Source: a virus. Taken from it: 43,915 bases of DNA. A program made the position numbers and the translations under genes. The stretch lies in IMG/VR virus record IMGVR_UViG_3300010401_000481, positions 1 through 43,915 of that record. One strand, 5' to 3'. This document shows positions 7,166-43,687 of this stretch, piece after piece. Each line of letters begins with the position of its first letter. Position 1 is the first letter of the stretch. A model generated the notes under the pieces. It did not search any database. It was not told where the DNA came from and was given only the letters and a program-made list of their open reading frames with translations.

Positions 7166-9765
7166 GACGCAATTCCCACTTCGTTCCTCGAATCCCGAAC
7201 ATGCTTCACCACGATATTCTTGCCTGCGTTGCTCTCCAGCCAGCGCAGAAACTTGTTGTGGTCATCGAGCACCGCCAGGTGCAGCGGCGTTGGCGCGACA
7301 TGCACCGAGGAGGCCCCGGCCGACCGGCCGCCTCCGGACGCCTGGGCGAACTGCTGCATGGCTCCCGCATCAGCCGTAATCGGCTTTTCCACGAATGACG
7401 GGGCGGCGTTCATGGCTGAGTAAAGGTCCAATACCCCTTGGTTCAACTTCGTGAAGAAGGGGACGCCAAACCTCCGCACCGTCTCGGCCTTGATGATCAC
7501 TTCCGGCCCGCGTTCGTTCACCTGGACGAACTGGCGGCCGCCAGGCACGACGCCGCCCTCGGCGAACGCGGCTGCCGATAACCCGGTCGCGAGCGCCGTT
7601 CCGGCCGACATGGCCACGGCATAGCCCGTAAACCCGGCTACGGCCGCGCCGCCGTAACTCGCTATCGATGCGGCCACGGCCGCTGGTGCCCAGGCTGCCG
7701 CCGATGCGGCCGCTTCGCTCTTGTCCGTCAGGCCAAAGAGCTTTTTCAGCGCGGCGATGATGGTCATCGAGGCAATCCACTGGATCACGATCTGGATGAT
7801 GTTCGCAATAATCTGACGCCCAATTTGCGAGAACACCTGGCCCCAGGTCTTCGTTCCATCGATCACCCCCATGATGGCGTCGCCAATGCCCTGGACTGAA
7901 CTCTTGATCCCATCGAGCACGCCGCCCGCCAGGTTCGCCCCCAGGTTCCCGAACTCATTCATCATGTCGGTCAACCCGCCCCGCATCCGCCCCAGGAAAT
8001 TGTCGCGCTCCAGTTCGCGCTGCTTATTGAGGGTCTCCGTTCGTTGCGTCTCCAGGACATTGATTTGCTTCAGCGCCTCGATGTGCGTTTCCGCCGTCTG
8101 GTCCTGGTCCTTGGCCAGCCGCTCGTAGGATGCCATCTGCTCATCGATGAGCCTCTGCTCTTCGCGCAGCAACCGGAGCAACAATTCCTTTTTCTCAGCC
8201 TTCGTTTTGTCCGGATCGCTTTCAATCCTCGCAACCCGGCCTTGGAGCTTCGCCAGCTCGATGGCAGCGGTTGCATCCGCCTCCTGCCGGGCCAGCTCCT
8301 CCCGCTGTCGGCCGTAAATCGCTGTCAGTTGCGTCTTGGCCTTTTGCACTTTCTCGTACTCGACCACATTGCCGTCCTGCTGCCGTGACAACTCCATCAA
8401 CTGCGAAAGCTCCAGCAGATAAGTCTTCTCCAACTGGTCCCGCTTGCTCAAAAAAGCCTGGTTCCACCGCTGCTTCATATCCTCGATGGATTTCAATTGC
8501 TCCGGCTTCAATGGGTCGGCGGCAAGCTGCCCTGTTGGTGGACTTGACGCTTCCGCTTTCTTTGGCCGTTCGGGCGTTGAACTCCATAAAAACTTGAGCT
8601 GGTCCTTCAGGTCGTTCCATTCCCCCTTCACGCTGTCCCAGACCGTTTTGCTATTGCCCTTGATGGCTGCCCAGGCTTCGTTGGCCCCGTTTGTGAATTG
8701 CCCCCAAATCGTCTTTCCAGCGTCCGTCACGGCGTCAACTGTTTCGGCCCAGCCCTGTTTAAAATTATCGATCATGGTCTGCGCCGACTCGGGCTTGAAC
8801 ATGAGGATCATATCGTGCCCCCCCATTTTTTGGGCTGCCTTCTCCAATTTCTCAGCCATGTCCCAGAGCGTTTTCACCACTTTGATTTGGGTCTCGATGG
8901 CTTTCGTGGCCACGTTCCAGGCACTCACCCAGACTCCCGTCAGGATTTCAACGATGGCTAACAGAGCGTGACCAAGCGACGCCAGCGCGGAGGCCAGGGC
9001 TTTGATAAGGGCCATGAACACCTGGATGTTCTCGGTGGCATGGTTAAACGACTCGGCTGCATCCTTCACGGCCTCGGCAATGCTCACCAGGGAAGGCAGC
9101 AACACTTGAATCGCTCTCGTCCCCATCCCTTCGAGCGCCGCTTTCGCCTCGCTCATGCTGTCACGGAACTCCCGCGCATCGGACACAAGCTCCCCGCCCA
9201 TGACCAGCCCCAGGGACTTCGCCTTCGCCATCACTTCCTGAATCGCTCCCGAGCCTTTGTTGAGCACCGGGATCATCGCCTGCCCGCCCCGGCCAAAGAT
9301 GGCCATCGCCAGATCCGTCCGATTTACTTCCGGGGCCAGGTTGTGGAAGCTGTCGGCCACTTGGAAAAGAAAATCCTCCAGCGTGCTGAACCCCCCGTTC
9401 TGCAAGTTCAATTTGAAGAGGGTCCGATAAGCGTCGTCACTGTGGCGCTCAAACTCCGCCAGGAACCGCGATGCCTCCTTTAAGCCCGCGTTGAATTCCT
9501 CCTGATTAACATTAGCCAGTTTCGCCGCGTAGCTCCATCCCGAGAGAGCCTCGGTGGTCATGCTGGTCTTTTCAGCCAGCACGCCCATCGCTTCCCCGCC
9601 CTCAATGATGCGGTGCCCCCACTCGATCAGGCGTTCCACCACAAAGAAGCTGGCGACCTTTTTGGCAGCCTCCTCCATCCCCTGGCTCACCTTCTTGGTG
9701 AACCCCTGGATCAATGCCTCTGCTGCCCGCGTCTCTGCCGAAATCTCAATCTTTACGTCGCCCAT
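7162..9765 (-). CDS. tail tape measure protein
   Basis: An 867-residue, helix-rich protein. Residues 1-60 match the opening of tape measures (VKIEISAETRAAEALIQGF). Long amphipathic helices follow, a charged coiled-coil block lies at about 410-590, and hydrophobic Ala/Gly-rich segments from about 620 (WIASMTIIAAL, then SYGGAAVAGF) can insert in the host membrane. It directly follows the chaperone pair with the frameshift. Using the rule of thumb of about 0.15 nm per residue, the tail would be roughly 130 nm (inference). No peptidase or lysozyme insertion is visible. Confidence 0.9.
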   Translation of the reverse strand: MGDVKIEISAETRAAEALIQGFTKKVSQGMEEAAKKVASFFVVERLIEWGHRIIEGGEAMGVLAEKTSMTTEALSGWSYAAKLANVNQEEFNAGLKEASRFLAEFERHSDDAYRTLFKLNLQNGGFSTLEDFLFQVADSFHNLAPEVNRTDLAMAIFGRGGQAMIPVLNKGSGAIQEVMAKAKSLGLVMGGELVSDAREFRDSMSEAKAALEGMGTRAIQVLLPSLVSIAEAVKDAAESFNHATENIQVFMALIKALASALASLGHALLAIVEILTGVWVSAWNVATKAIETQIKVVKTLWDMAEKLEKAAQKMGGHDMILMFKPESAQTMIDNFKQGWAETVDAVTDAGKTIWGQFTNGANEAWAAIKGNSKTVWDSVKGEWNDLKDQLKFLWSSTPERPKKAEASSPPTGQLAADPLKPEQLKSIEDMKQRWNQAFLSKRDQLEKTYLLELSQLMELSRQQDGNVVEYEKVQKAKTQLTAIYGRQREELARQEADATAAIELAKLQGRVARIESDPDKTKAEKKELLLRLLREEQRLIDEQMASYERLAKDQDQTAETHIEALKQINVLETQRTETLNKQRELERDNFLGRMRGGLTDMMNEFGNLGANLAGGVLDGIKSSVQGIGDAIMGVIDGTKTWGQVFSQIGRQIIANIIQIVIQWIASMTIIAALKKLFGLTDKSEAAASAAAWAPAAVAASIASYGGAAVAGFTGYAVAMSAGTALATGLSAAAFAEGGVVPGGRQFVQVNERGPEVIIKAETVRRFGVPFFTKLNQGVLDLYSAMNAAPSFVEKPITADAGAMQQFAQASGGGRSAGASSVHVAPTPLHLAVLDDHNKFLRWLESNAGKNIVVKHVRDSRNEVGIAS

Positions 9766-31303: not shown

Positions 31304-31692
31304 ACTCCTGCTTCGATTGGTTTTTTTCGGTAGAACAATTTGTCCGCCTCAATCACCCGCCGTCTCATTTCGTCCGCCTGGGACGACATCCAGTGCCGCC
31401 AGTGATTGTATTCCTCGTGCGTCATGTCCTGCACGAGCTTGTAACCCTTCTGCCCGCCCGCGATGCGCCCCTGGCTCGCGCTCGCCAGCGCCCGGACCAG
31501 CCGGTCCGGCACCTGGCGTTGCGTCTTCTCCTCGATGGCCGCAATAATTTCCTTCGCCGTCATCCACCCTTTTCCCGTCAAAAGTTCCACAAGGAACTTG
31601 ATGTTCGGATCGTCCGGCCGAATCTCGCAACTCGGCTCGCCCTCGCGTTTCCTCGGCTCGAACAACGCCAGCTCTGGATGGTTGGGAATCAC
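31300..31692 (-). CDS. putative winged-helix protein
   Basis: A 130-residue protein. LLTGKGWMTAKEIIAAIEEKTQ and DRLVRALASASQGRIAGGQKGYKL look like a winged helix with a GQKGYKLV wing, followed by a helical tail (WMSSQADEMRRRVIEADKLFY). This pattern recurs in phage replication-region proteins. It sits between ThyX and the DnaA-like gene, overlapping both. Confidence 0.6.
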   Translation of the reverse strand: MIPNHPELALFEPRKREGEPSCEIRPDDPNIKFLVELLTGKGWMTAKEIIAAIEEKTQRQVPDRLVRALASASQGRIAGGQKGYKLVQDMTHEEYNHWRHWMSSQADEMRRRVIEADKLFYRKKPIEAGV

Positions 31693-32411
31693 TGTGCAGC
31701 TTCATGGATTGACCATTTGAACTTTTCGTAAGCCTCCATCGTCCAGGGAAACAGTTCTGCGCAGATAGATTTAATGGCGCGGCCGTAATCTTGAATCTCC
31801 GCCTGCGCGTGCGCATCCTCGCGCAAGGCAATAAAGTGCAGCAGGTTCTTCAGGTCCCAGCAGGAGTAGATTTCGGTGTAGATGTTCACCGGCAGGACCA
31901 TCCGGGCCATCTCGCGAGCCACGCCATCACTCAGCAACGCCATGTAAGTCGTGTAGGCTTTCTGGCAATGGTCCTGAAGAATGTCGGTAAAGTGCGCATT
32001 ATAGCTTTTTCCTGCCAGCTTGGACACGGGCTGGTTCCACTCCATAGGGACGCTTGACTGCTTGTTCTGTTGGTCCTGCCCCCTCCACTTGGCCGGGATG
32101 TAAAACTCGTTCGGCAACTCGGTGTAGCGAGCCGAGACCTCGTTCAGGTTCTGCATCCGGTGCCGGACGTATTGGCGCATCACGAAGATGGGCAGCTTCA
32201 CGTTGAGCGTGACCTTGGCCATCTCGAACGGCGACGTGTGCCGGTTCTTGTAAAGGTATGCCAGCAGCTTCTTGTCGGCCTCCTCGCCCTTTGAGGCTGA
32301 CCGGTAGGATACGCGTGCGGCCTCCAGGATGCGGGCGTCGCTGCCCATGTGGTCGATATATCGAACATAGCCGTGGTCTAGCACGGGGATGGTGTGACCT
32401 GGTTGAATCAT
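31689..32411 (-). CDS. thyX: flavin-dependent thymidylate synthase
   Basis: A 240-residue ThyX from the ATG at 32409-32411. It carries the ThyX signature RHRMQNLNEVSARY (RHRx7S), plus SPFEMAKVTLNVKLPIFVMRQ ahead of it and ARMVLPVNIYTEIYSCWDLKNLLHF near the C-terminus. The enzyme methylates dUMP to dTMP with methylene-tetrahydrofolate, FAD and NADPH. It overlaps the DUF3310 gene by ATGA. ThyX is frequent in large lytic phages; in a transposable phage it suggests that thymidylate is limiting during replicative transposition. Confidence 0.93.
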   Translation of the reverse strand: MIQPGHTIPVLDHGYVRYIDHMGSDARILEAARVSYRSASKGEEADKKLLAYLYKNRHTSPFEMAKVTLNVKLPIFVMRQYVRHRMQNLNEVSARYTELPNEFYIPAKWRGQDQQNKQSSVPMEWNQPVSKLAGKSYNAHFTDILQDHCQKAYTTYMALLSDGVAREMARMVLPVNIYTEIYSCWDLKNLLHFIALREDAHAQAEIQDYGRAIKSICAELFPWTMEAYEKFKWSIHEAAQ

Positions 32412-32647
32412 TTGCTTTTGGGTTTGAGTTGTTTCTCGCGCCGTTTGATGTCGCGGTCCAGATACCACAGCGCCTTTTTCAAGTCCTGGATCGGGTTCTC
32501 CTTGTGCTCCGCTCGGGCCACATACTTCACCACGTTGCCCAGGTGGAAATTCAAAGACCAATCTTCGATGGCATCGATGACCTCAATGCTACCGAAGGTG
32601 TAATGCTTGGGATGGTTGACGGGGTCTTTTTGCTTTTGTGTGCTCAT
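32408..32647 (-). CDS. DUF3310-family protein
   Basis: A 79-residue protein that is almost entirely the DUF3310 pattern: DPVNHPKHYTFGSIEVIDAIEDWSLNFHLGNVVKYVARA followed by DLKKALWYLDRD. Such proteins are common in phages near nucleotide-metabolism genes and are often annotated as nucleotide-kinase-like, though activity is not established. The next gene is thyX. Confidence 0.88.
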   Translation of the reverse strand: MSTQKQKDPVNHPKHYTFGSIEVIDAIEDWSLNFHLGNVVKYVARAEHKENPIQDLKKALWYLDRDIKRREKQLKPKSK

Positions 32648-34465: not shown

Positions 34466-34806
34466 GCGACCTCCGGTAGCCAGGGGTTGCCCGTGCGCGC
34501 GTAACGCTCTCGGAAGCCCGCCCAGGAGGGTGGCTCGACAAAGGGCGCTCGGGCCGCCTCTTTCGCTTCACGCAACTCGCGACCAGTGAGTTCGTCGGAG
34601 AATCGCTCAATCCACTGGAGCCATTCTTCGAGCGTGCGCAGGGAGTAGTCTGAGTGGCTGCCAATGCCGTCCGTCTCGCTGCAGGTGCTATAGCAGAAAT
34701 TCGGGTGTTTGGGATTTACTTCCAGGATCAGTCTGCGCGGGCCGCGAATGTTGTCCCCAAAGGCCACGTCCATTGGTTTCCACCGGAATTGTGCAGGGGC
34801 GCTCAT
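34462..34806 (-). CDS. phage protein of unknown function
   Basis: A 114-residue protein with an aromatic N-terminal half (RLILEVNPKHPNFCYSTCSE) and a helical second half (LEEWLQWIERFSDELTGREL). No family recognised. It directly follows the Gam-like gene with an ATGA junction. Confidence 0.55.
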   Translation of the reverse strand: MSAPAQFRWKPMDVAFGDNIRGPRRLILEVNPKHPNFCYSTCSETDGIGSHSDYSLRTLEEWLQWIERFSDELTGRELREAKEAARAPFVEPPSWAGFRERYARTGNPWLPEVA

Positions 34807-35354
34807 GCCGCCTCCTGTTGCACGGCCTCTTCGACCGCTTTGCCCATATCCAGTTTGGCCGGCGTCACGCTGATCGAGTCCGTCTTGATCCGCTTGATCC
34901 GGAACTTGGCCAGCTCCCCGTCATCCAGCTTCTCCAGCGCTTCCAGGTTGAGGGACTTCTTCTGGTGCAAATAGTCCGCGGCCTTGAACCCCTTGTCCCT
35001 CTCGCCCGCATGCTCGATGAGCACGATAGACACCTCTTCGTTCGCCGCATCGAGCTTGGTGGTGGACGTGCTTTTCACCTTGCCGTAAGGCGTGGTCAGG
35101 GTCTTCTTGCTGCCGAACCATTCCGGGTGCAGCAACGCCAGCTCCTTGATTTTCTTTTCCGCCTCGGTGACCGTGCTCTGCAGCAGCGCAAAGTTTGCCT
35201 TGCTGCCCTCCAGGATTTGGAACAACTGCTTGTTCGCTTCCGTCTCGAGAGCGGCCAGCGAATTGGTCACTTCCGAGAAAATGGCCAGCAGCTCCACCAG
35301 TGTTTTGAATTGTTCGGGGTCTTTGACTTCAACCGTTGTCTTGGTCTTGCTCAT
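34803..35354 (-). CDS. Gam-like DNA-end protection protein
   Basis: A 183-residue protein with the layout of Mu Gam: an N-terminal long coiled coil (FKTLVELLAIFSEVTNSLAALETEANKQLF) that dimerises, a strand segment FGSKKTLTTPYGKVKSTSTTK, and a C-terminal helix-strand part (LEALEKLDDGELAKFRIKRIK, DSISVTPAKLDM). Mu Gam, a bacterial Ku relative, coats linear DNA ends and blocks exonucleases. It is in the semi-early region as in Mu. The start context is CTAAAACTATG with no Shine-Dalgarno. Confidence 0.72.
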   Translation of the reverse strand: MSKTKTTVEVKDPEQFKTLVELLAIFSEVTNSLAALETEANKQLFQILEGSKANFALLQSTVTEAEKKIKELALLHPEWFGSKKTLTTPYGKVKSTSTTKLDAANEEVSIVLIEHAGERDKGFKAADYLHQKKSLNLEALEKLDDGELAKFRIKRIKTDSISVTPAKLDMGKAVEEAVQQEAA

Positions 35355-36354: not shown

Positions 36355-36756
36355 TCAGGGAAGCTTGGGGTTGGGTCGTTGCGGATCGTAAGCGGAGGCG
36401 CACCACCGGTTCAGCGGCAGTTCCGCCAGTGAATACCAGATGTTCCCCCAGGGCTTGAATGTTCCCATGGGTCGCGGATCATCTTCTGCCAGCCGCATGA
36501 AGAACGTGCGCTCAAACCCTTCCTCTCGCACGAATGCCCACAGGGTCGCCTCCCGGAACCGCAGCAGGCGTCCCCAGGCCCGCATGTAACACGTCTCCAC
36601 CTCGGCATTCCTGAAGGTCCCGTCATAATATGTCTTGCAGCCATCGCACACCCACACGCCGTTCACGAGGGACAACTGTCCCACGTTCATGCTGCAGCCG
36701 TGGCATTCCACTCCGGGACTGACTACTGAGCACTGACTACTGATTACTGTCTTCAT
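36355..36756 (-). CDS. zinc-ribbon-like early protein with repeat-derived N-terminus
   Basis: A 133-residue protein. The N-terminus (TVISSQCSVVSPG) is encoded by ACTGANN heptamers. Next come ECHGCSMNVGQ and VWVCDGCKTYYDG, two CxxC knuckles of a zinc ribbon, then a mixed region with RAWGRLLRFREATLWAFVREEG. The ATG overlaps the MuB-like stop and has a strong GGAGGAGGG ribosome site, so it is probably well expressed with the transposition proteins. Function unknown. Confidence 0.65.
   Translation of the reverse strand: MKTVISSQCSVVSPGVECHGCSMNVGQLSLVNGVWVCDGCKTYYDGTFRNAEVETCYMRAWGRLLRFREATLWAFVREEGFERTFFMRLAEDDPRPMGTFKPWGNIWYSLAELPLNRWCASAYDPQRPNPKLP
36718..36752. repeat. ACTGANN heptamer array at the start of the zinc-ribbon gene
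   Basis: ACTGACT, ACTGAGC, ACTGACT, ACTGATT and ACTGTCT follow in tandem from 36718 to 36752, immediately after the ATG at 36754-36756. Confidence 0.85.
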
Positions 36757-37835
36757 TGTCCCTCCTCCGTGTCTTCGTCCCGGACCATCTTGACCAGGCT
36801 CAAGGTCAGCGGCCGCTTGCCCATTTCCGCTCGGACCTTCGCCTGCTGCAGGTCTTCGAACAGCCTCCGGATGCGGCCCGGCTCCCGGCTGATCTTCACC
36901 AGAAAGTCCAGGTGCTTGTCCGCGTCCTTTAACCCGAACGCCTTGGCAATCGTCAGCACATCCTCCTCGGGCGGCACGTCCGGCAGCCGCAGGAAGTTTG
37001 TCCGGCCACCCGCCCGGCCCTCGAACTGCTCGAAGAACCCCTTCGCCAGGCCCTCCAGGAGTGTTCGCTCAAACACCGGCGTGATGCTCAGGATGATTGT
37101 GCCACCGCGTTCATCCTGGAGGCGGGAGAGAAAATCGAACACCGGCTGGTTGTGCCCGTTCTTCTCTTTGTAGAGGCGCTGCACGTTGTCCACGATGATG
37201 GTCTTCGTGTCGTTGAACGCCTGGAACACTTTGAAGCGCAGCCGCTGATAGCCTTCCTGGGGGCTCGATCCGTAGCGCACCGCCAGGCTGCTGATGAACT
37301 CCACCATGCTCCCGTTCTCCGGCGCTTCCACCCACGAGCACATGCCGTGATTGTTCCGCCTGCAGTATTCCTTGTAGCTCGCCGTCTTCTGGCTCCCCGT
37401 CTGGCCGACCACCACCCCGAACCGGTTCACCCGCTCGGGCGCTCGCTTTCCGTCCACGAAGTTGAAAATCTGCTTCGTGATGCTCGTCTCGATGAACGGG
37501 ACCTTCCCCGCCATCTCCCGGACGCGCTCATCGCTCCGCAGCAGCCGCACCGCCTTCAGGAAGTTCGCCTGCGAAATCACCGGCGACGTTTCGTTGCCCT
37601 CCGCGTCGCGGCCCCACTTCCCGCGCAGTATCCGGCTCCAGGTCGTCTTGTCGTGCTGCACCCCAAGCGCCCGCGCCCGCGTGGCCAGCACCTCAATGTC
37701 CCGATGGCAGGCGTCGCGTAGGAACGCTCCCAGCCAGAGGAAGTCCTCCCGCATTTCCGCTGGCAGGTTGGCCGCGTTGCGCTGCAGGTTCAGCTCGTCC
37801 AGTTTTAATGATGTGTTCTGTGGGTTGCTCTCCAT
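36753..37835 (-). CDS. MuB-like target-selection ATPase with altered Walker motifs
   Basis: A 360-residue AAA+ protein in the MuB position after the transposase. An N-terminal region (about 40-110) looks helical with a DNA-binding feel (TTWSRILRGKWGRD). The ATPase core has VVVGQTGSQKTAS: Walker A is GQTGSQKT (144-151), with Gln instead of the last Gly. Walker B is TIIVDNVQ (212-219), with Asn after the Asp instead of Glu. LSITPVFERTLLEGL and EPGRIRRLFEDL give the sensor regions. MuB binds target DNA and stimulates the transposase, needing ATP binding more than turnover; the altered motifs fit a slow ATPase (inference). Confidence 0.85.
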   Translation of the reverse strand: MESNPQNTSLKLDELNLQRNAANLPAEMREDFLWLGAFLRDACHRDIEVLATRARALGVQHDKTTWSRILRGKWGRDAEGNETSPVISQANFLKAVRLLRSDERVREMAGKVPFIETSITKQIFNFVDGKRAPERVNRFGVVVGQTGSQKTASYKEYCRRNNHGMCSWVEAPENGSMVEFISSLAVRYGSSPQEGYQRLRFKVFQAFNDTKTIIVDNVQRLYKEKNGHNQPVFDFLSRLQDERGGTIILSITPVFERTLLEGLAKGFFEQFEGRAGGRTNFLRLPDVPPEEDVLTIAKAFGLKDADKHLDFLVKISREPGRIRRLFEDLQQAKVRAEMGKRPLTLSLVKMVRDEDTEEGQ

Positions 37836-37853: not shown

Positions 37854-39824
37854 CTAGGTGGTTTGGTTTTGGTTCTCCCGCTGAGCAAGAAACTGCCTGG
37901 CCCAATCAGCTTCCTGCTCCAATCGTTTCCGCTGCCGCTCCGCGTCCACCGGTGGACGCGCGGGCGCGACCGGCTGGGGTGTGGAAGGACGCCCGTCAAT
38001 AATCACAGACCCCGCTCCCTCTCCCCCTTTCACCCCTTCCGCCTTTCGCGCCGCCTCGCGCCTGGCTGCAATTTCCTCCGGCACCTGCCGTGACGGCGCG
38101 TGCTTCACCAGCGTCGCGTAAGCCGTCATCACCGCGTTGCGCCATTGCTTGCGCACGTCATGCCCGGTCAAATCGCTGCCCAGGAAACTCCCCACGCGCT
38201 CTTGGTAAGGAGCCGCGCAGATAAAATCACCGGGCGCAAATTCTTGCCCGCCGACCCGGCATTTGGAGGCCGCGTGGATCTGCGCGGGTTGCTCGAAGTT
38301 CTCCCGGTCGTAATAAACGATCACTTCCTTGCCCTCGATGTCGGCAAACGCTTTCGGGTTGCAATACCACAGCGAGTAGCGGCGGCTGGCCGGGTCCGTC
38401 AATCGCACCCGCGCCCAGCCGTGCGTGATCGTCAGCGGCTTCCAGGACCGCGCATACAAATAGCGCTGGTCGTCGTTCAGGAGAAACAGCGGATGCTCCG
38501 ACCGCGCCTGCTCGAACTTCTGAATCGGGATGCCGTGAAACACCTCTCCCTCCATCGGCTCGTTGTTGATGTATTCGATGATGCGCCGAATCATCAGCAT
38601 GATTTCCGTCTGGCTCAGGAAATAGAGGCGCGGGTCCAGCTTGGTGCGCGGACGCGAGCACTGCTCGTAAAGCTTCTTCATCTTTTCGTAGGGCTGCCGC
38701 ATCTGGTCCCGACCCAGGCTGCCCCACAGCGTTCCCTCGAACGTCTGGTTGCGATTGAACCAGCCCTCGATGCTCTTGCTCTTGGGCAGGAACGAAGTCC
38801 ACGTCTGCAGGTTCTTCGGAAAGGAGTCCGCGTCCGCGCCCATCGTCTTCCGGTGCCACTCGGTGATGTTGGTGGGCATCTGGCGCAACGCCCCCACGCG
38901 CCGGGACAAAGTGATCTCCCCCTCCAGGTATTCCACCTCCTGGCCGGCTATCAGGTTCGCCTCCCAACTGCCCCGCTCCAACTGCCAGCCCAGCCTGGGC
39001 ACACCCACGGTGTCGAACGTGTGCCCGAACAGGCTCCAGATGTCATAAGCCCGGTAGCTCGATTTCTCGCGGGCAATCAGCGCCATTGAGACTATGGCCT
39101 GGCTGGCCACGTCGATCACCGGAAGGAACTGCCCCTGCAGCAGCTTCACCCCGAACGGATACTCCTCGCATTCCACCCACGGCACCCACCACGCCCAGAT
39201 GGGCGTCGTATCGTCGCTGGAGAAAATGTCTCCCGGCAAAATGTCGCAGCGCCGGGGCGTGTAGATGCCCTTCAGCGCCAGCGCTCGCGGTCCCTCATGC
39301 ACCAGCCGCAAGCCGGGAGTCTTGATCAGCGCGTCCCGGATCGACGGCGCTATTGCGTGCTTGCTGCACTTGTTCGGATTCAGGATTTCCCGCGCCAGGT
39401 GCTCGGGGCATTGGTCGCTCTGCGCGAACAGCCGCCACGCGGCCGTGGTGGACTTCGTGTCCAGGTTCAGGCCCGAGACCTGGTCGATGATCTCCTGGGT
39501 CAGCCCGAGCAGCTCCGCCTTCGTTTTGCGGCCGCACTTGTCCGTCTTGGGCAGCAGCCCGTCGAAACCCTTGGTGTCGAACGCCTTCAAATAACGCCAC
39601 AAGGAGGTGATGCTCTCGCCGGTTTTTTTAGATGCCTCCTTCTTGGAGAAACCCTGCGAAAGCAGGGACTTGTAGGTTGTCACCAGGTCCAGTCGGCGAT
39701 TTGCCTCCTTGTAGCGAAAATCATCACTCTCAAACGAATCTGTCGAGGTAGGGCTCGTCACTCCGTGCGAGCCGTCATTCGACTCCGCAATGGGGTTACT
39801 CATGCTCGCTTCGTCTTGGGTCAT
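37854..39824 (-). CDS. transposase (MuA-like DDE recombinase)
   Basis: About 656 residues. The N-terminus has an HTH-type DNA-binding domain (RYKEANRRLDLVTTYKSLL, FSKKEASKKTGESITSLWRY, FDGLLPKTDK). The RNase-H core has GDIFSSDDTTPIWAW (first acidic residue at about D204), LPVIDVASQAIVSMAL, GVPRLGWQLERGSWEAN (the second position, normally Asp, reads Glu, about E283) and KSIEGWFNRNQTFEG (third, about E353). A C-terminal beta-barrel follows (DPASRRYSLWYCNPKAFADI, EGKEVIVYYDRE). The chosen ATG (39822-39824) has the AACTATG context; ATGs at 39833 and 39803 are possible. It cuts and joins the phage ends into target DNA. Confidence 0.9.
   Translation of the reverse strand: MTQDEASMSNPIAESNDGSHGVTSPTSTDSFESDDFRYKEANRRLDLVTTYKSLLSQGFSKKEASKKTGESITSLWRYLKAFDTKGFDGLLPKTDKCGRKTKAELLGLTQEIIDQVSGLNLDTKSTTAAWRLFAQSDQCPEHLAREILNPNKCSKHAIAPSIRDALIKTPGLRLVHEGPRALALKGIYTPRRCDILPGDIFSSDDTTPIWAWWVPWVECEEYPFGVKLLQGQFLPVIDVASQAIVSMALIAREKSSYRAYDIWSLFGHTFDTVGVPRLGWQLERGSWEANLIAGQEVEYLEGEITLSRRVGALRQMPTNITEWHRKTMGADADSFPKNLQTWTSFLPKSKSIEGWFNRNQTFEGTLWGSLGRDQMRQPYEKMKKLYEQCSRPRTKLDPRLYFLSQTEIMLMIRRIIEYINNEPMEGEVFHGIPIQKFEQARSEHPLFLLNDDQRYLYARSWKPLTITHGWARVRLTDPASRRYSLWYCNPKAFADIEGKEVIVYYDRENFEQPAQIHAASKCRVGGQEFAPGDFICAAPYQERVGSFLGSDLTGHDVRKQWRNAVMTAYATLVKHAPSRQVPEEIAARREAARKAEGVKGGEGAGSVIIDGRPSTPQPVAPARPPVDAERQRKRLEQEADWARQFLAQRENQNQTT
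39528..39724 (-). repeat. transposase DNA-binding domain region, duplicated at 40457-40653
   Basis: About 197 bp at the 5' part of the transposase gene align without gaps to 40457-40653 with roughly 88% identity (23 mismatches counted by hand). The duplicated stretch encodes the HTH domain through LLPKTD. Confidence 0.85.
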
Positions 39825-39840
39825 AGTTTCCATCTTCGGT

Positions 39841-40041
39841 TTAAAACAGTTCGAGTTGTTCCTTCCCGCGCTTGCGGGCAAATTCACAAAGCCTCCGGAC
39901 CGCGCCGCGCCGCTCATAAACGTCATCGCTCCGCAGCCGCGATTTCGGCTCGGCTGGCGCGGCCTGCCAGCACATCACGCACAGAATCTTCCCTTCCCCC
40001 CTCGGCAGCCCGCACGGGCACAATGGCGCTTTCTTGCTCAT
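39841..40041 (-). CDS. small zinc-ribbon-like protein
   Basis: A 66-residue protein: KKAPLCPCGLPRGEGKILCVMCW with four cysteines in a CxC...CxxC arrangement, then a basic helix RSDDVYERRGAVRRLCEFARKRG. Likely zinc-binding and DNA- or RNA-binding. It lies directly upstream of the transposase gene in the early operon. Confidence 0.65.
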   Translation of the reverse strand: MSKKAPLCPCGLPRGEGKILCVMCWQAAPAEPKSRLRSDDVYERRGAVRRLCEFARKRGKEQLELF

Positions 40042-40287: not shown

Positions 40288-40394
40288 CGTTTCTTCCTCC
40301 CTTTTAGGAATCCAACCCACCAGCCGATTAGGGCTCCGTTCAACCACACCTGGAATATCAGCCAAGCCAAATCCGCGTCAGTGATGGTGCTCAT
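40284..40394 (-). CDS. 36-residue membrane protein
   Basis: A short gene, MSTITDADLAWLIFQVWLNG followed by ALIGWWVGFLKGRKKR: one membrane helix and a strongly basic tail. It has ATGA overlaps on both sides, which places it firmly within the early operon. Confidence 0.6.
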   Translation of the reverse strand: MSTITDADLAWLIFQVWLNGALIGWWVGFLKGRKKR

Positions 40395-40669
40395 CGCCCT
40401 TGCCCTCCCAGCAGCGGCCGGACGTGCTTGTCGAATCCAGACGGCTGTGGCGTCACGCGTCCGCACCGATCCGTCTTGGGCAGCAGCCCGTCGAAACCAT
40501 GCGCGTCGAACGCATTCAAATAACGCGTCAAGGAAGTGGCGCTCTCGCCGATTTGTTTAGATGCCTCCTTCTTGGAGAAACCCTGCGAAAGCAGGGACTT
40601 GCAGATTGTCACCAGGTCCAGTCGGCGTTTGGCCTCCCTGTAGCGGAAATTATCTGTGGGCGTTTTCAC
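40391..40669 (-). CDS. stand-alone copy of the transposase HTH domain, candidate transposition regulator
   Basis: A 92-residue protein from a GTG at 40667-40669, preceded by AAGGGGGGGCAA. It consists almost only of the transposase N-terminal DNA-binding domain: FRYREAKRRLDLVTICKSLL, FSKKEASKQIGESATSLTRY and FDGLLPKTDRCGR. The transposase has nearly the same stretches, and the DNA is about 88% identical over 197 bp. It stops where the transposase continues with its catalytic part. In Mu the repressor and MuA share a related DNA-binding domain and compete at the operator/enhancer. This protein could occupy transposase sites and reduce or tune transposition (inference). Confidence 0.75.
   Translation of the reverse strand: MKTPTDNFRYREAKRRLDLVTICKSLLSQGFSKKEASKQIGESATSLTRYLNAFDAHGFDGLLPKTDRCGRVTPQPSGFDKHVRPLLGGQGR
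40457..40653 (-). repeat. duplicated copy of the transposase HTH region
   Basis: Second copy of the segment at 39528-39724, about 929 bp away in the same orientation. The direct orientation means that recombination between copies would delete the genes between them, including the zinc-ribbon gene and the transposase start. Confidence 0.85.
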
Positions 40670-40829: not shown

Positions 40830-41738
40830 TCACTCCTCCCTCTTGTGTTGTTGTTTCTTCCGTGCCCGCAACGCCGACTCGATCTCATCGCACAGGTCCT
40901 GCGGCATCGCTGCAATGGCCCCGCAGATGACCGGCTTCAGTGTCGCCTTCTCGTCCGCGTCGAACTTGTGCCAGTAATCGAACCGCTTCGTCAGCGTGTC
41001 GAAGGCGTCGGAAAATAACTCGAGCTGCGCCGGGTTCCGCTTAGCCTTGCCCGAGGTGGAGAGCGACCCCGCAATCCCCGCGATGACCGCCCCCAGCCCG
41101 TAGGGCTTTTCCTCGCGCAAAATCAGCGGCTCGTAGAACTCCTTGAACGTCACCCCATGCACCGTGTTCCCGTCCTGGTCCGTCAGGTCCCGCTTCTTGT
41201 TGTGCTTGCCAAACTCCAGGTGGACCTTCTGGGCATCGAAGAAAATGCGGCGTGAAATACCGATGTGCTGGGCTTCGTCCTCGACTGATTTCCTCGATAG
41301 TGCAGCGCCTGCACTATCGAGAGATCCTTGGAAATGTCGCAGGTTTTGGAGCCGACGACGCCTGGACTCGTCAAAAACACGCGCCATCAGTGGATAGGTC
41401 AAATAAGCGAGCTGCGACTGTGTATAATGCCCCCGCTGAACCAGCCCGCTCACAATCACCCCATAGACATCCCCGGCCTCGCGCACGATGACGGGCACAA
41501 CGCCGAGCTGCAGGCGCTTCGCTGCCCGCCATCGCCGCCGCCCGTCCAGAATCCGGTTCTCGCCATCAATCAGCAGTGGCTGATCGATGCCCCTCTCGCG
41601 AATGTCTTCGACCAGCGCCTTGAATCGAACGTCGTCATTCCCCCACTCGTCCGGGATCAGTTTCTTGTCCGGGTGGACCGTCAAATCCGCGGTGAACCGA
41701 ATCTCAACCTGGTGCTCGCGCTCAAGTGTGTCGTTCAT
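40830..41738 (-). CDS. ParB-like nuclease/CTPase-fold protein of the early operon
   Basis: A 302-residue protein with a ParB-N-type domain: ALVEDIRERGIDQPLLID and GENRILDGRRRWRAAKRL (box II GRRRWRAA, about 66-73), then LGVVPVIVREAG. The middle (ILREEKPYGLGAVIAGIAGSL) and C-terminal helical part (DFDTLTKRFDYWHKF-like) are not assigned. ParB-like genes occur in several transposable phages near the transposase; their function there is not settled. A 13-bp perfect palindrome interrupts the gene at 41293-41321. It directly follows the small RHH gene, with 2 bp between them, and has the AATAACTATG start context. Confidence 0.82.
   Translation of the reverse strand: MNDTLEREHQVEIRFTADLTVHPDKKLIPDEWGNDDVRFKALVEDIRERGIDQPLLIDGENRILDGRRRWRAAKRLQLGVVPVIVREAGDVYGVIVSGLVQRGHYTQSQLAYLTYPLMARVFDESRRRRLQNLRHFQGSLDSAGAALSRKSVEDEAQHIGISRRIFFDAQKVHLEFGKHNKKRDLTDQDGNTVHGVTFKEFYEPLILREEKPYGLGAVIAGIAGSLSTSGKAKRNPAQLELFSDAFDTLTKRFDYWHKFDADEKATLKPVICGAIAAMPQDLCDEIESALRARKKQQHKREE
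41293..41321. repeat. 13-bp perfect palindrome inside the ParB-like gene
   Basis: CTCGATAGTGCAG (41293-41305) and CTGCACTATCGAG (41309-41321) form a perfect stem with a 3-base loop. It is translated in frame as part of SLDSAGAALSRKS. It could be a binding site (a parS-like element or an operator) or an mRNA hairpin. Confidence 0.9.
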
Positions 41739-41740
41739 AG

Positions 41741-41935
41741 TTATTTCGCAGTTGGCTCTACGTGTTCTCCTAAGGTGATTCGTCCTTCCTCCAGCGCGGG
41801 CAGTCCGTTGTTTATTGCCATACGCAGCGCGTCGCTTTTTGAAATACCGGCTGCCCGAGCGACCTGTTTTAGTTTTCTGTCCACTTCCGCCGGCAACCGA
41901 ACCGGGAGGACGTTTCCGAATCTTCTTAATCTCAT
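41741..41935 (-). CDS. small ribbon-helix-helix regulator, first gene of the early operon
   Basis: A 64-residue RHH protein: FGNVLPVRLPAEVDRKLKQV gives the DNA-contacting strand and first helix, GISKSDALRMAINNGL the second helix. It is paralogous to the divergent protein (VLPVRLPAEVDRKL versus VLPIRLETDVEERL). It starts about 10 bp from the -10 element of the leftward promoter, and would be the first protein made on induction, a Cro/Ner-like position. It probably binds the TTGCTATACA repeats upstream (inference). Confidence 0.82.
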   Translation of the reverse strand: MRLRRFGNVLPVRLPAEVDRKLKQVARAAGISKSDALRMAINNGLPALEEGRITLGEHVEPTAK

Positions 41936-41944
41936 GTGCTCAAC

Positions 41945-41973
41945 TGTGTAGCATTGCTATACAATCGAGTCAA
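41945..41973 (-). promoter_or_regulatory. early leftward promoter
   Basis: On the minus strand TTGACT (41973-41968) and TACACA (41950-41945) lie 17 bp apart, giving a good -35 and a moderate -10. The transcript would start near 41938, just upstream of the RHH ATG. The first TTGCTATACAA repeat (41954-41964) lies between the two boxes, so a bound protein would block the polymerase. Confidence 0.55.
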
Positions 41974-42007
41974 CACTTTTCTTGCTATACAATTCTTTTG
42001 CTATACA
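41945..42007. promoter_or_regulatory. operator repeats of the genetic switch
   Basis: TTGCTATACAA occurs at 41954-41964 and 41982-41992, and TTGCTATACA at 41998-42007, all in the same orientation, with start spacings of 28 and 16 bp. A degenerate inverted copy, TGTGTAGCAT, lies at 41945-41954 (8 of 10 matches). Short direct repeats between two divergent RHH genes are typical of RHH operators. In Mu the operator also serves as the transpositional enhancer; that may hold here. Confidence 0.75.
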
Positions 42008-42015
42008 CATGGTTT

Positions 42016-42462
42016 ATGCCGCTTGGCTCAGTATTGCCGATTCGCCTCGAAACAGACGTGGAGGAACGCCTTGATGGCGTTGCCCAACAAATTGGCACCA
42101 CTAAGTCTGCGATCATCCGCCTCCTTGCGAAAACCTTCGTTGACCAAGTCGTCAATGATCGTGGAAAGGTGACACTCCCTCCCAATTGGAAAGAGCTCCT
42201 GCCTGCTGCCGACGCAAGGTCCACAGGGGGCACGGCAAAGCCCACGCTGTTGGACAAACGGGGCTTCCCGTTCAATTCCAAAGTTGCCGCCGCCGCTGAA
42301 GGCGCCCAAGCTTCCGCCGTGGAGGAAGTCCTTCGTCCAGGTCAAGAATCGCGGCCTTCAGCAGCAACTGTTTCGACCAGCGATAATAAAGCCTCGCCAA
42401 AGCGCGGCACTGTGGGGCGTCAAAAGCCTCGGTCCAAACCTGTAACTTTGGCTCCAAAATAA
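42016..42462 (+). CDS. ribbon-helix-helix protein with basic tail, candidate lysogeny repressor
   Basis: A 148-residue protein, the only gene of its direction next to the early promoter. Residues 1-45 form an RHH domain (GSVLPIRLETDVEERLDGVA, GTTKSAIIRLLAKTFVDQVV) related to that of the divergent 64-residue protein. The rest is Ala/Ser/Lys/Arg-rich and probably disordered. It contains NWKELLPAADARSTGG and a basic end (RGTVGRQKPRSKPVTLAPK). The ATG is 8 bases after the third operator repeat with no Shine-Dalgarno, so the mRNA may be leaderless. By position it is the counterpart of the Mu c repressor. Confidence 0.7.
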   Translation: MPLGSVLPIRLETDVEERLDGVAQQIGTTKSAIIRLLAKTFVDQVVNDRGKVTLPPNWKELLPAADARSTGGTAKPTLLDKRGFPFNSKVAAAAEGAQASAVEEVLRPGQESRPSAATVSTSDNKASPKRGTVGRQKPRSKPVTLAPK

Positions 42463-43303: not shown

Positions 43304-43531
43304 ATGGCCCATTCATCGCCCGAAAACGTATCCTCCCATCCACCCTTTTCGCAATCCCAAACCCTCTTCCTGCCGTTCCCCGGCCAGGCGGGTGTATTGG
43401 TTCGGCAGCGGCGCGGCAAGCGCACTGCCAAGCCGCTGCAGTTCCCGAGCTCCGTCGCGGCGCTGGCCTGGTGCGAGAAACACCGCACCAACCTGGTCTA
43501 TTTCTTCGGTGTGGTGCCGTCCCTTAATTGA
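43304..43531 (+). CDS. small phage-end protein (uncertain)
   Basis: A 75-residue ORF. Its C-terminal half (VRQRRGKRTAKPLQFPSSVAAL followed by AWCEKHRTNLVYFFGV) looks like a folded small protein with a basic start. The start has the GACTATG context seen at several genes here, but no Shine-Dalgarno. It would be the gene closest to the c-end. No named family recognised. Confidence 0.45.
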   Translation: MAHSSPENVSSHPPFSQSQTLFLPFPGQAGVLVRQRRGKRTAKPLQFPSSVAALAWCEKHRTNLVYFFGVVPSLN

Positions 43532-43563: not shown

Positions 43564-43687
43564 ACCCTTTCCAACCATTTCTCGGACCCCATTTGGGGGC
43601 TGTCTGAGAAAACCTTGAAAAGTCCTCCCCGAAGTCGTTGATTTTCAAACACCTTCGGGGTCTTTCGGGCTGTTTCAACCTTTCCTC
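43564..43687. repeat. c-end transposase-binding repeat cluster
   Basis: Four copies of a TTGAAAAGG-like core lie within 124 bp: inverted at 43564-43589 (21 of 26 match to the left end), direct at 43606-43622 (16 of 17 match), a short inverted TTTTCAA at 43642-43648, and inverted at 43673-43687 (13 of 15). A wide spread of sites is how L1-L3 are arranged at the left end of Mu. The candidate terminal CA is at 43676-43677. Hairpins CCCCGAAG/CTTCGGGG (43627-43634 and 43653-43660) and CCCC-ATTT-GGGG (43587-43598) lie between the sites. Confidence 0.6.

Follow-up and report, generated by a model that had tools for sequence, protein, structure and literature searches.

A proposed lysogeny switch of two paralogous ribbon-helix-helix proteins in place of c/ner in a Mu-like phage

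We describe a locus that is likely to be the immunity switch of a Mu-like Verrucomicrobia prophage, in which the longer of two divergent ribbon-helix-helix (RHH) proteins would serve as the lysogeny repressor and the shorter as an early repressor of the Ner/Arc type, with half-sites shared between them. That a paralogous-RHH lysogeny switch occupies the c/ner position is well supported by sequence comparison with related phages; DNA binding, the repression targets of each protein and the induction signal are what we infer. The stretch analyzed, referred to here as the window, is an entire virus record of 43,915 bases and appears to be a Mu-like phage of Verrucomicrobia, a host phylum in which temperate phages have received little study.

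The phage record, its RHH proteins and the putative operators

The window is a Mu-like transposable phage, as its MuA/MuB pair and its Mu/D3112-type structural genes show. A MuA-type transposase (37854-39926, minus strand, with the start more likely at 39833; phrog_310, E=8e-11) adjoins a MuB-like AAA ATPase (36753-37835, minus strand) that carries PF09077 Phage-MuB_C and AAA_22 and matches Mu B. Mu Gam (34803-35354, minus strand) is present, as are portal, TerL, head protease and major head genes of the Mu/D3112 type. Where Mu-like phages would have HTH-type switch genes (c, Ner), the window has RHH genes in their place. The leftward early operon runs from the short RHH gene through a gene for a 302-aa ParB_N-domain protein (40830-41738, minus strand; PF02195, E=1.3e-9) and small genes to MuA and MuB. 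The switch genes lie past the transposition genes on the side of the phage end that has MuA-site-like repeats near 43673; the long RHH gene is directed at this end and the short one comes first in the opposing operon, which is the layout of Mu c/ner.

Several other features of the record were observed. Inverted AAAAGGTTGAAA-like repeats occur at both record ends (181-214 and 43609-43684) and also near the start of the locus of one relative (L020); judged by sequence they are probably MuA end-binding sites, and they put the ends of the phage close to positions 180 and 43685. A thymidylate synthase gene is found at 31689-32561 (minus strand; phrog_85, E=2e-65). The interval from the switch to the phage end contains a small gene (43304-43531, plus strand), with counterparts in L020 (250-477, minus), L028 (6459-6653, minus) and L030 (6711-6938, plus). 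The ParB-like coding sequence holds a perfect 13-bp inverted repeat, CTCGATAGTGCAG-CGC-CTGCACTATCGAG (41293-41321), with no second copy within one mismatch anywhere in the record; it is a candidate binding site of the ParB-like protein.

The sequence-only reading from which this work started had described two divergent genes with related RHH domains, and the comparison of their products agrees. The short protein (64 aa; 41741-41935, minus strand) matches Pfam RHH_1 above the cut-off and resembles its long partner (148 aa; 42016-42462, plus strand, from an in-frame ATG at 42016), with 33% identity over 52 residues in BLASTP and E=2e-7 for one comparison. The RHH domain of the long protein, at about residues 5-47, covers positions 4-39 of the 39 in the RHH_1 model at a sub-threshold E of 0.011, and is followed by a long Lys/Pro/Ala-rich tail that is probably disordered. 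Structure prediction places helices at residues 13-26 and 30-47 after an N-terminal strand segment, with a pLDDT of about 90, and leaves the tail unstructured. In Foldseek this model matches CopG (1ea4) with a probability of 0.98 but an E of about 0.3, and P22 Arc stands further down the list; CopG, AvtR and further RHH chains are also matched, at E of about 8e-5, by a profile that combines the pairs of the window, L020 and L028. Judged from sequence and model, both window proteins fit the RHH (MetJ/Arc/CopG) class, i.e., a ribbon strand and two helices. As to a different repressor, which the same reading had named as one finding that would count against it, the rest of the record encodes no HTH_3 protein of the CI/Cro type that passes the cut-off.

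The three direct repeats that had been noticed between the genes are confirmed as exact copies of TTGCTATACA at 41954, 41982 and 41998. These are the only exact copies in the record, and no further site in it matches within one mismatch (0.48 expected record-wide). The repeat score of the 91-bp intergenic stretch was matched by 0/1000 dinucleotide shuffles, and a chance origin of the window repeats was dismissed on this count. The first copy is fused to an inverted near-copy, with one base common to both, to give a 19-bp near-palindrome, TGTGTAGCA-T-TGCTATACA (= TGTGTAGCATTGCTATACA; 41945-41963), which sequence and repeat statistics mark as a putative operator. It spans the spacer and the -10 of the predicted early leftward promoter (41945-41973, minus strand), which consists of a -35 TTGACT (41973-41968), a 17-bp spacer and a -10 TACACA (41950-41945). 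The promoters were identified by eye from the sequence; this one is absent from a strict scan because the scan's -10 rule demands a final T. The two other copies are predicted operator half-sites (41982-41991 and 41998-42007, both plus strand), the last of them 8 bp ahead of the ATG of the long gene. The earlier placement of one repeat in the leftward promoter and one before the rightward start therefore holds, refined by the palindrome and the 8-bp distance. Each of repeats 2 and 3 contains TGnTATACA, so that either could, to go by sequence, serve as the extended -10 of a rightward promoter. Both proteins probably read the same operator.

Switch pairs at the same position in related phages

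Loci of relatives were gathered via portal, MuB or MuA and at no point via the switch genes, so switch type was not a selection criterion. A first scan of the genome collection with MuB found zero relatives and one with MuA found three; phylum- and order-wide genome searches gave one usable relative of the same clade (G689/L043) and a distant one (G670/L044). Scans of viral contigs with P0002 or MuA as single proteins returned zero close relatives. In tblastn against named phages, MuA and P0002 had zero matches and the sole match of P0001, a weak one, was to an archaeal virus. The MuA relatives are 46-59% identical to the window MuA by tblastn. The order switch, ParB-like gene, MuA, MuB is common to L013, L020, L027-L030 and L043.

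Related phages were searched for the same pair, as had been proposed, and it was found. An RHH pair stands at the switch position clearly in L020 and L028, probably in L029 and tentatively in L021 and L023. The other five relatives (L013, L027, L030, L043 and L044) have an HTH pair there, with a CI-like HTH_3 protein over the cut-off at the c position and an HTH-like protein of 61-65 aa at the ner position. Partners are alike in fold in 11/11 phages, the window included, with several of these assignments being tentative.

The MuA of L020 is 56% identical to that of the window over the best tblastn segment, and this phage encodes RHH proteins of 89 aa (leftward) and 64 aa (rightward). An exact TTGCTATACA (1513-1522) sits inside its predicted early promoter, TTGACC (1495-1500) and TATACA (1517-1522) with a 16-bp spacer, and TTGCTATCC occurs twice ahead of the long gene. 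In L028 (96 aa and 63 aa), ACTTARCAAG occurs three times, namely upstream of the long gene, within the spacer of the early promoter, predicted as TTGACA (7521-7526)-17-TAGTCT, and immediately ahead of the short gene's ATG. The L029 proteins are mutual best matches, and TTTAACACCCAT/ATGGGTGATAAA are found at their two promoters; a single-sequence structure model of the short protein was of low confidence and not clearly RHH, and was left out of the evidence. The L021 and L023 pairs resemble RHH proteins in their pattern. Of these four proteins, only the short one of L023 matches a Pfam RHH family, and that match (5.9e-5) is under the family cut-off. In the dinucleotide-shuffle test, the operator repeats were equaled by 2/1000 shuffles in L028, 8/1000 in L020 and 36/1000 in L021, and those of L023 and L029 were no better than shuffles.

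A collection scan for TTGCTATACA arrays and for the palindrome found a few unrelated contigs. Among viral contigs, the near-identical L049 and L050, which are without MuA, have three TGTATAGCA repeats ahead of an RHH-looking ORF (MKTQWNMRIEQEELDSW...) at about 7420-7520; this is suggestive of other RHH proteins that may read the same half-site. Two further observations concern the relatives. An early gene whose product starts M(S/T)xxFIxxYxG is found in L020 (1724-1954), L028 (7919-8164) and L029 (2324-2617) and is absent from the window; it sits after the short switch gene, directly so in L020 and L029, and before the ParB-like gene. The MuA of L030 (G007:C108) is interrupted by one in-frame TAG, which makes decay of this prophage probable.

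The similarity between partners is specific. When single-protein HMMs were run against 4675 ORFs from 15 loci, the top non-self match was the protein's own divergent partner for 8/8 proteins of the window, L020, L028 and L029. In a six-by-six table of long-versus-short scores, the true pairing was the best assignment of 720, and the Z of the true pairs was 13.8 for the window, 11.8 for L020, 9.8 for L028 and 8.4 for L029. For L021 (2.3) and L023 (-1.2) no similarity between partners was detectable, and HTH pairs gave no partner signal, with 33/120 pairings equally good. In the first eight alignment columns, which approximate the DNA-reading ribbon, partners in the four phages are identical at 20/32 positions, versus about 45/150 in the rest; these identities were tallied by eye and post hoc, from local alignments that begin at similar residues. 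Partner similarity could instead stem from recent duplication, without a shared operator. Duplication alone, however, is expected to lift similarity overall and not in the ribbon in particular, and one shared operator would give the observed pattern. We take the excess in the ribbon as a lead toward matched reading of one operator by both partners.

Homologues of the ParB-like gene are present in RHH and HTH phages alike (L013, L020, L021, L023, L027-L030 and L043), which bears on a second account of the locus. RHH centromere-binding proteins exist, e.g., ParG. The short RHH gene lies directly upstream of the ParB_N gene, and the L023 short protein weakly matches ParG; the two genes might accordingly form a partition-like module of an RHH centromere-binding protein and ParB, with no lysogeny switch. 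However, the ParB-like gene is retained beside an HTH protein and an unrelated long repressor in L013, L027, L030 and L043, and the scanned genes around the switch included no ParA. Since the ParB-like gene stays as the RHH gene is exchanged, the RHH-ParB module was rejected, and we regard it as very improbable.

The exchange itself can be followed on the MuA tree, where three changes of the RHH/HTH label are required and well-supported branches force two or more of them. The nearest MuA relative of the window, L030 (61% identity), has an HTH pair, so the two switch genes seem to have been swapped together. It may be, though we hold this as a conjecture with the chances slightly against it, that in one group of Mu-like Verrucomicrobia phages the immunity cassette is swapped as a two-gene unit with partners of the same fold, and that in its RHH form both repressors stem from one domain and the ribbons of the two paralogues change together in each phage, so that a matched change of both proteins and one half-site gives new immunity specificities.

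Proposed roles of the two proteins

We propose that the switch would work as follows. In the lysogen, the long RHH protein would bind the palindrome over the leftward promoter and keep the early operon (short RHH, ParB-like, MuA and MuB genes) off, and would regulate its own gene via the two half-sites at the gene start. Once the early operon fires, the short RHH protein would be produced and would act on the same half-sites with a different affinity or cooperativity; it would shut the gene of the long repressor and later damp the early operon, in the manner of Mu Ner and P22 Arc. Both proteins would derive from one RHH domain, and matching DNA-reading ribbons would be kept in both because the same sites must be read.

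By analogy, the short protein is probably a second, early repressor (Ner/Arc-like) rather than an antirepressor. The repressor/antirepressor pair suggested by the sequence-only reading is retained as a paralogous RHH pair at the c/ner position, and its antirepressor is judged less probable in view of the position of the gene and the P22 and Mu precedents. The roles might also be reversed or symmetric, with the short protein as the main autoregulated repressor and the long one as an accessory or antagonist, e.g., via mixed dimers. In keeping with this, the strongest putative operator, the 19-bp palindrome, sits on the short gene's own promoter, and mixed dimers are conceivable between related RHH domains. 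The HTH relatives, however, have the long CI-like gene facing the phage end and the short gene in the early operon, and in P22 it is the long Mnt that keeps lysogeny and the short Arc that is the early repressor; we therefore consider reversed or symmetric roles unlikely.

Another candidate for the immunity repressor is encoded between the ParB-like gene and MuA, where the N-terminal HTH domain of MuA recurs as a free-standing gene (40391-40669, minus strand). Mu repressor and transposase N-termini are related, and on this analogy the HTH protein could be the repressor, with the RHH pair merely tuning expression. Its frame is intact, and over about 55 residues the protein shares about 82% identity with the HTH domain of MuA; mini-HTH genes, mutually related, lie just upstream of MuA in L020 (3315-3458, plus) and L029 (3693-3863, plus). 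Yet the gene lies within the early operon and hence would not be expressed in a lysogen, L028, L030 and L027 showed no counterpart of it, and the c position is already occupied by an RHH protein. We give this explanation little credence; the HTH protein could be an extra regulator.

If these roles hold, with the long RHH protein as lysogeny repressor and the short one as its early counterpart, the core decision circuit of Mu-type phages can be built anew on an unrelated fold of DNA-binding protein with gene order and operator placement kept. The window, L020, L028 and L029 would then form a naturally occurring set in which every matched repressor pair has a half-site of its own, and such pairs would allow the co-evolution of RHH paralogues and a shared operator to be studied directly.

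Comparison with known switches

Mu c and Ner are HTH proteins. In its arrangement the window resembles Mu and B3, with a long repressor gene facing the phage end, a divergent short early regulator, transposition genes next and operators between, but it differs from Mu c/Ner and from the HTH-type RepC of the hankyphage in that both switch proteins are RHH and paralogous. For Fc02/B3, a c/ner layout has been described with an early operon beginning with ner (PMC9936078), and the hankyphage RepC at the c position is a CI-like HTH protein (PMC12135933). In the literature searched, mostly outside subscription journals, no Mu-type phage with RHH switch proteins was found. With CopG/RHH_1 autoregulators and RHH antitoxins, the window shares the RHH fold and repeated half-sites over a promoter; unlike them, it has no toxin or plasmid replication gene and comprises two divergent paralogues instead of one autoregulator.

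The closest parallel in organization is immI of P22, where Mnt represses arc and ant, and Arc represses mnt and moderates ant (PMC11016777). In the P22 record, mnt (83 aa) and arc (53 aa) are divergent with overlapping promoters, and the ant promoter contains the arc operator, with that of mnt beside it; the similarity of Mnt and Arc to each other is strong (Z 16.5). Like immI, the window has a divergent pair of paralogous RHH genes that differ in length; in both, the divergent promoters (predicted in the window) overlap and an operator lies within one of them, and the shorter protein (arc in P22) is the first gene of the opposing operon. The differences are as follows. P22 immI is a secondary region that controls the antirepressor Ant, with arc and mnt operators annotated separately, whereas the window pair is at the primary c/ner position with the same half-site at both promoters; the genes next after the short RHH gene are ParB-like and MuA, and no ant gene is evident among them; and the similarity of the window proteins to Arc and Mnt is weak in sequence (Z at most 6.3), which does not amount to a close relation. 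The claim of a new switch design accordingly stands for Mu-type phages within the papers searched and not in general, since mnt/arc of P22 immI is a precedent. What the window would add is that the mnt/arc logic of P22 is carried from a secondary immunity region to an apparent primary switch.
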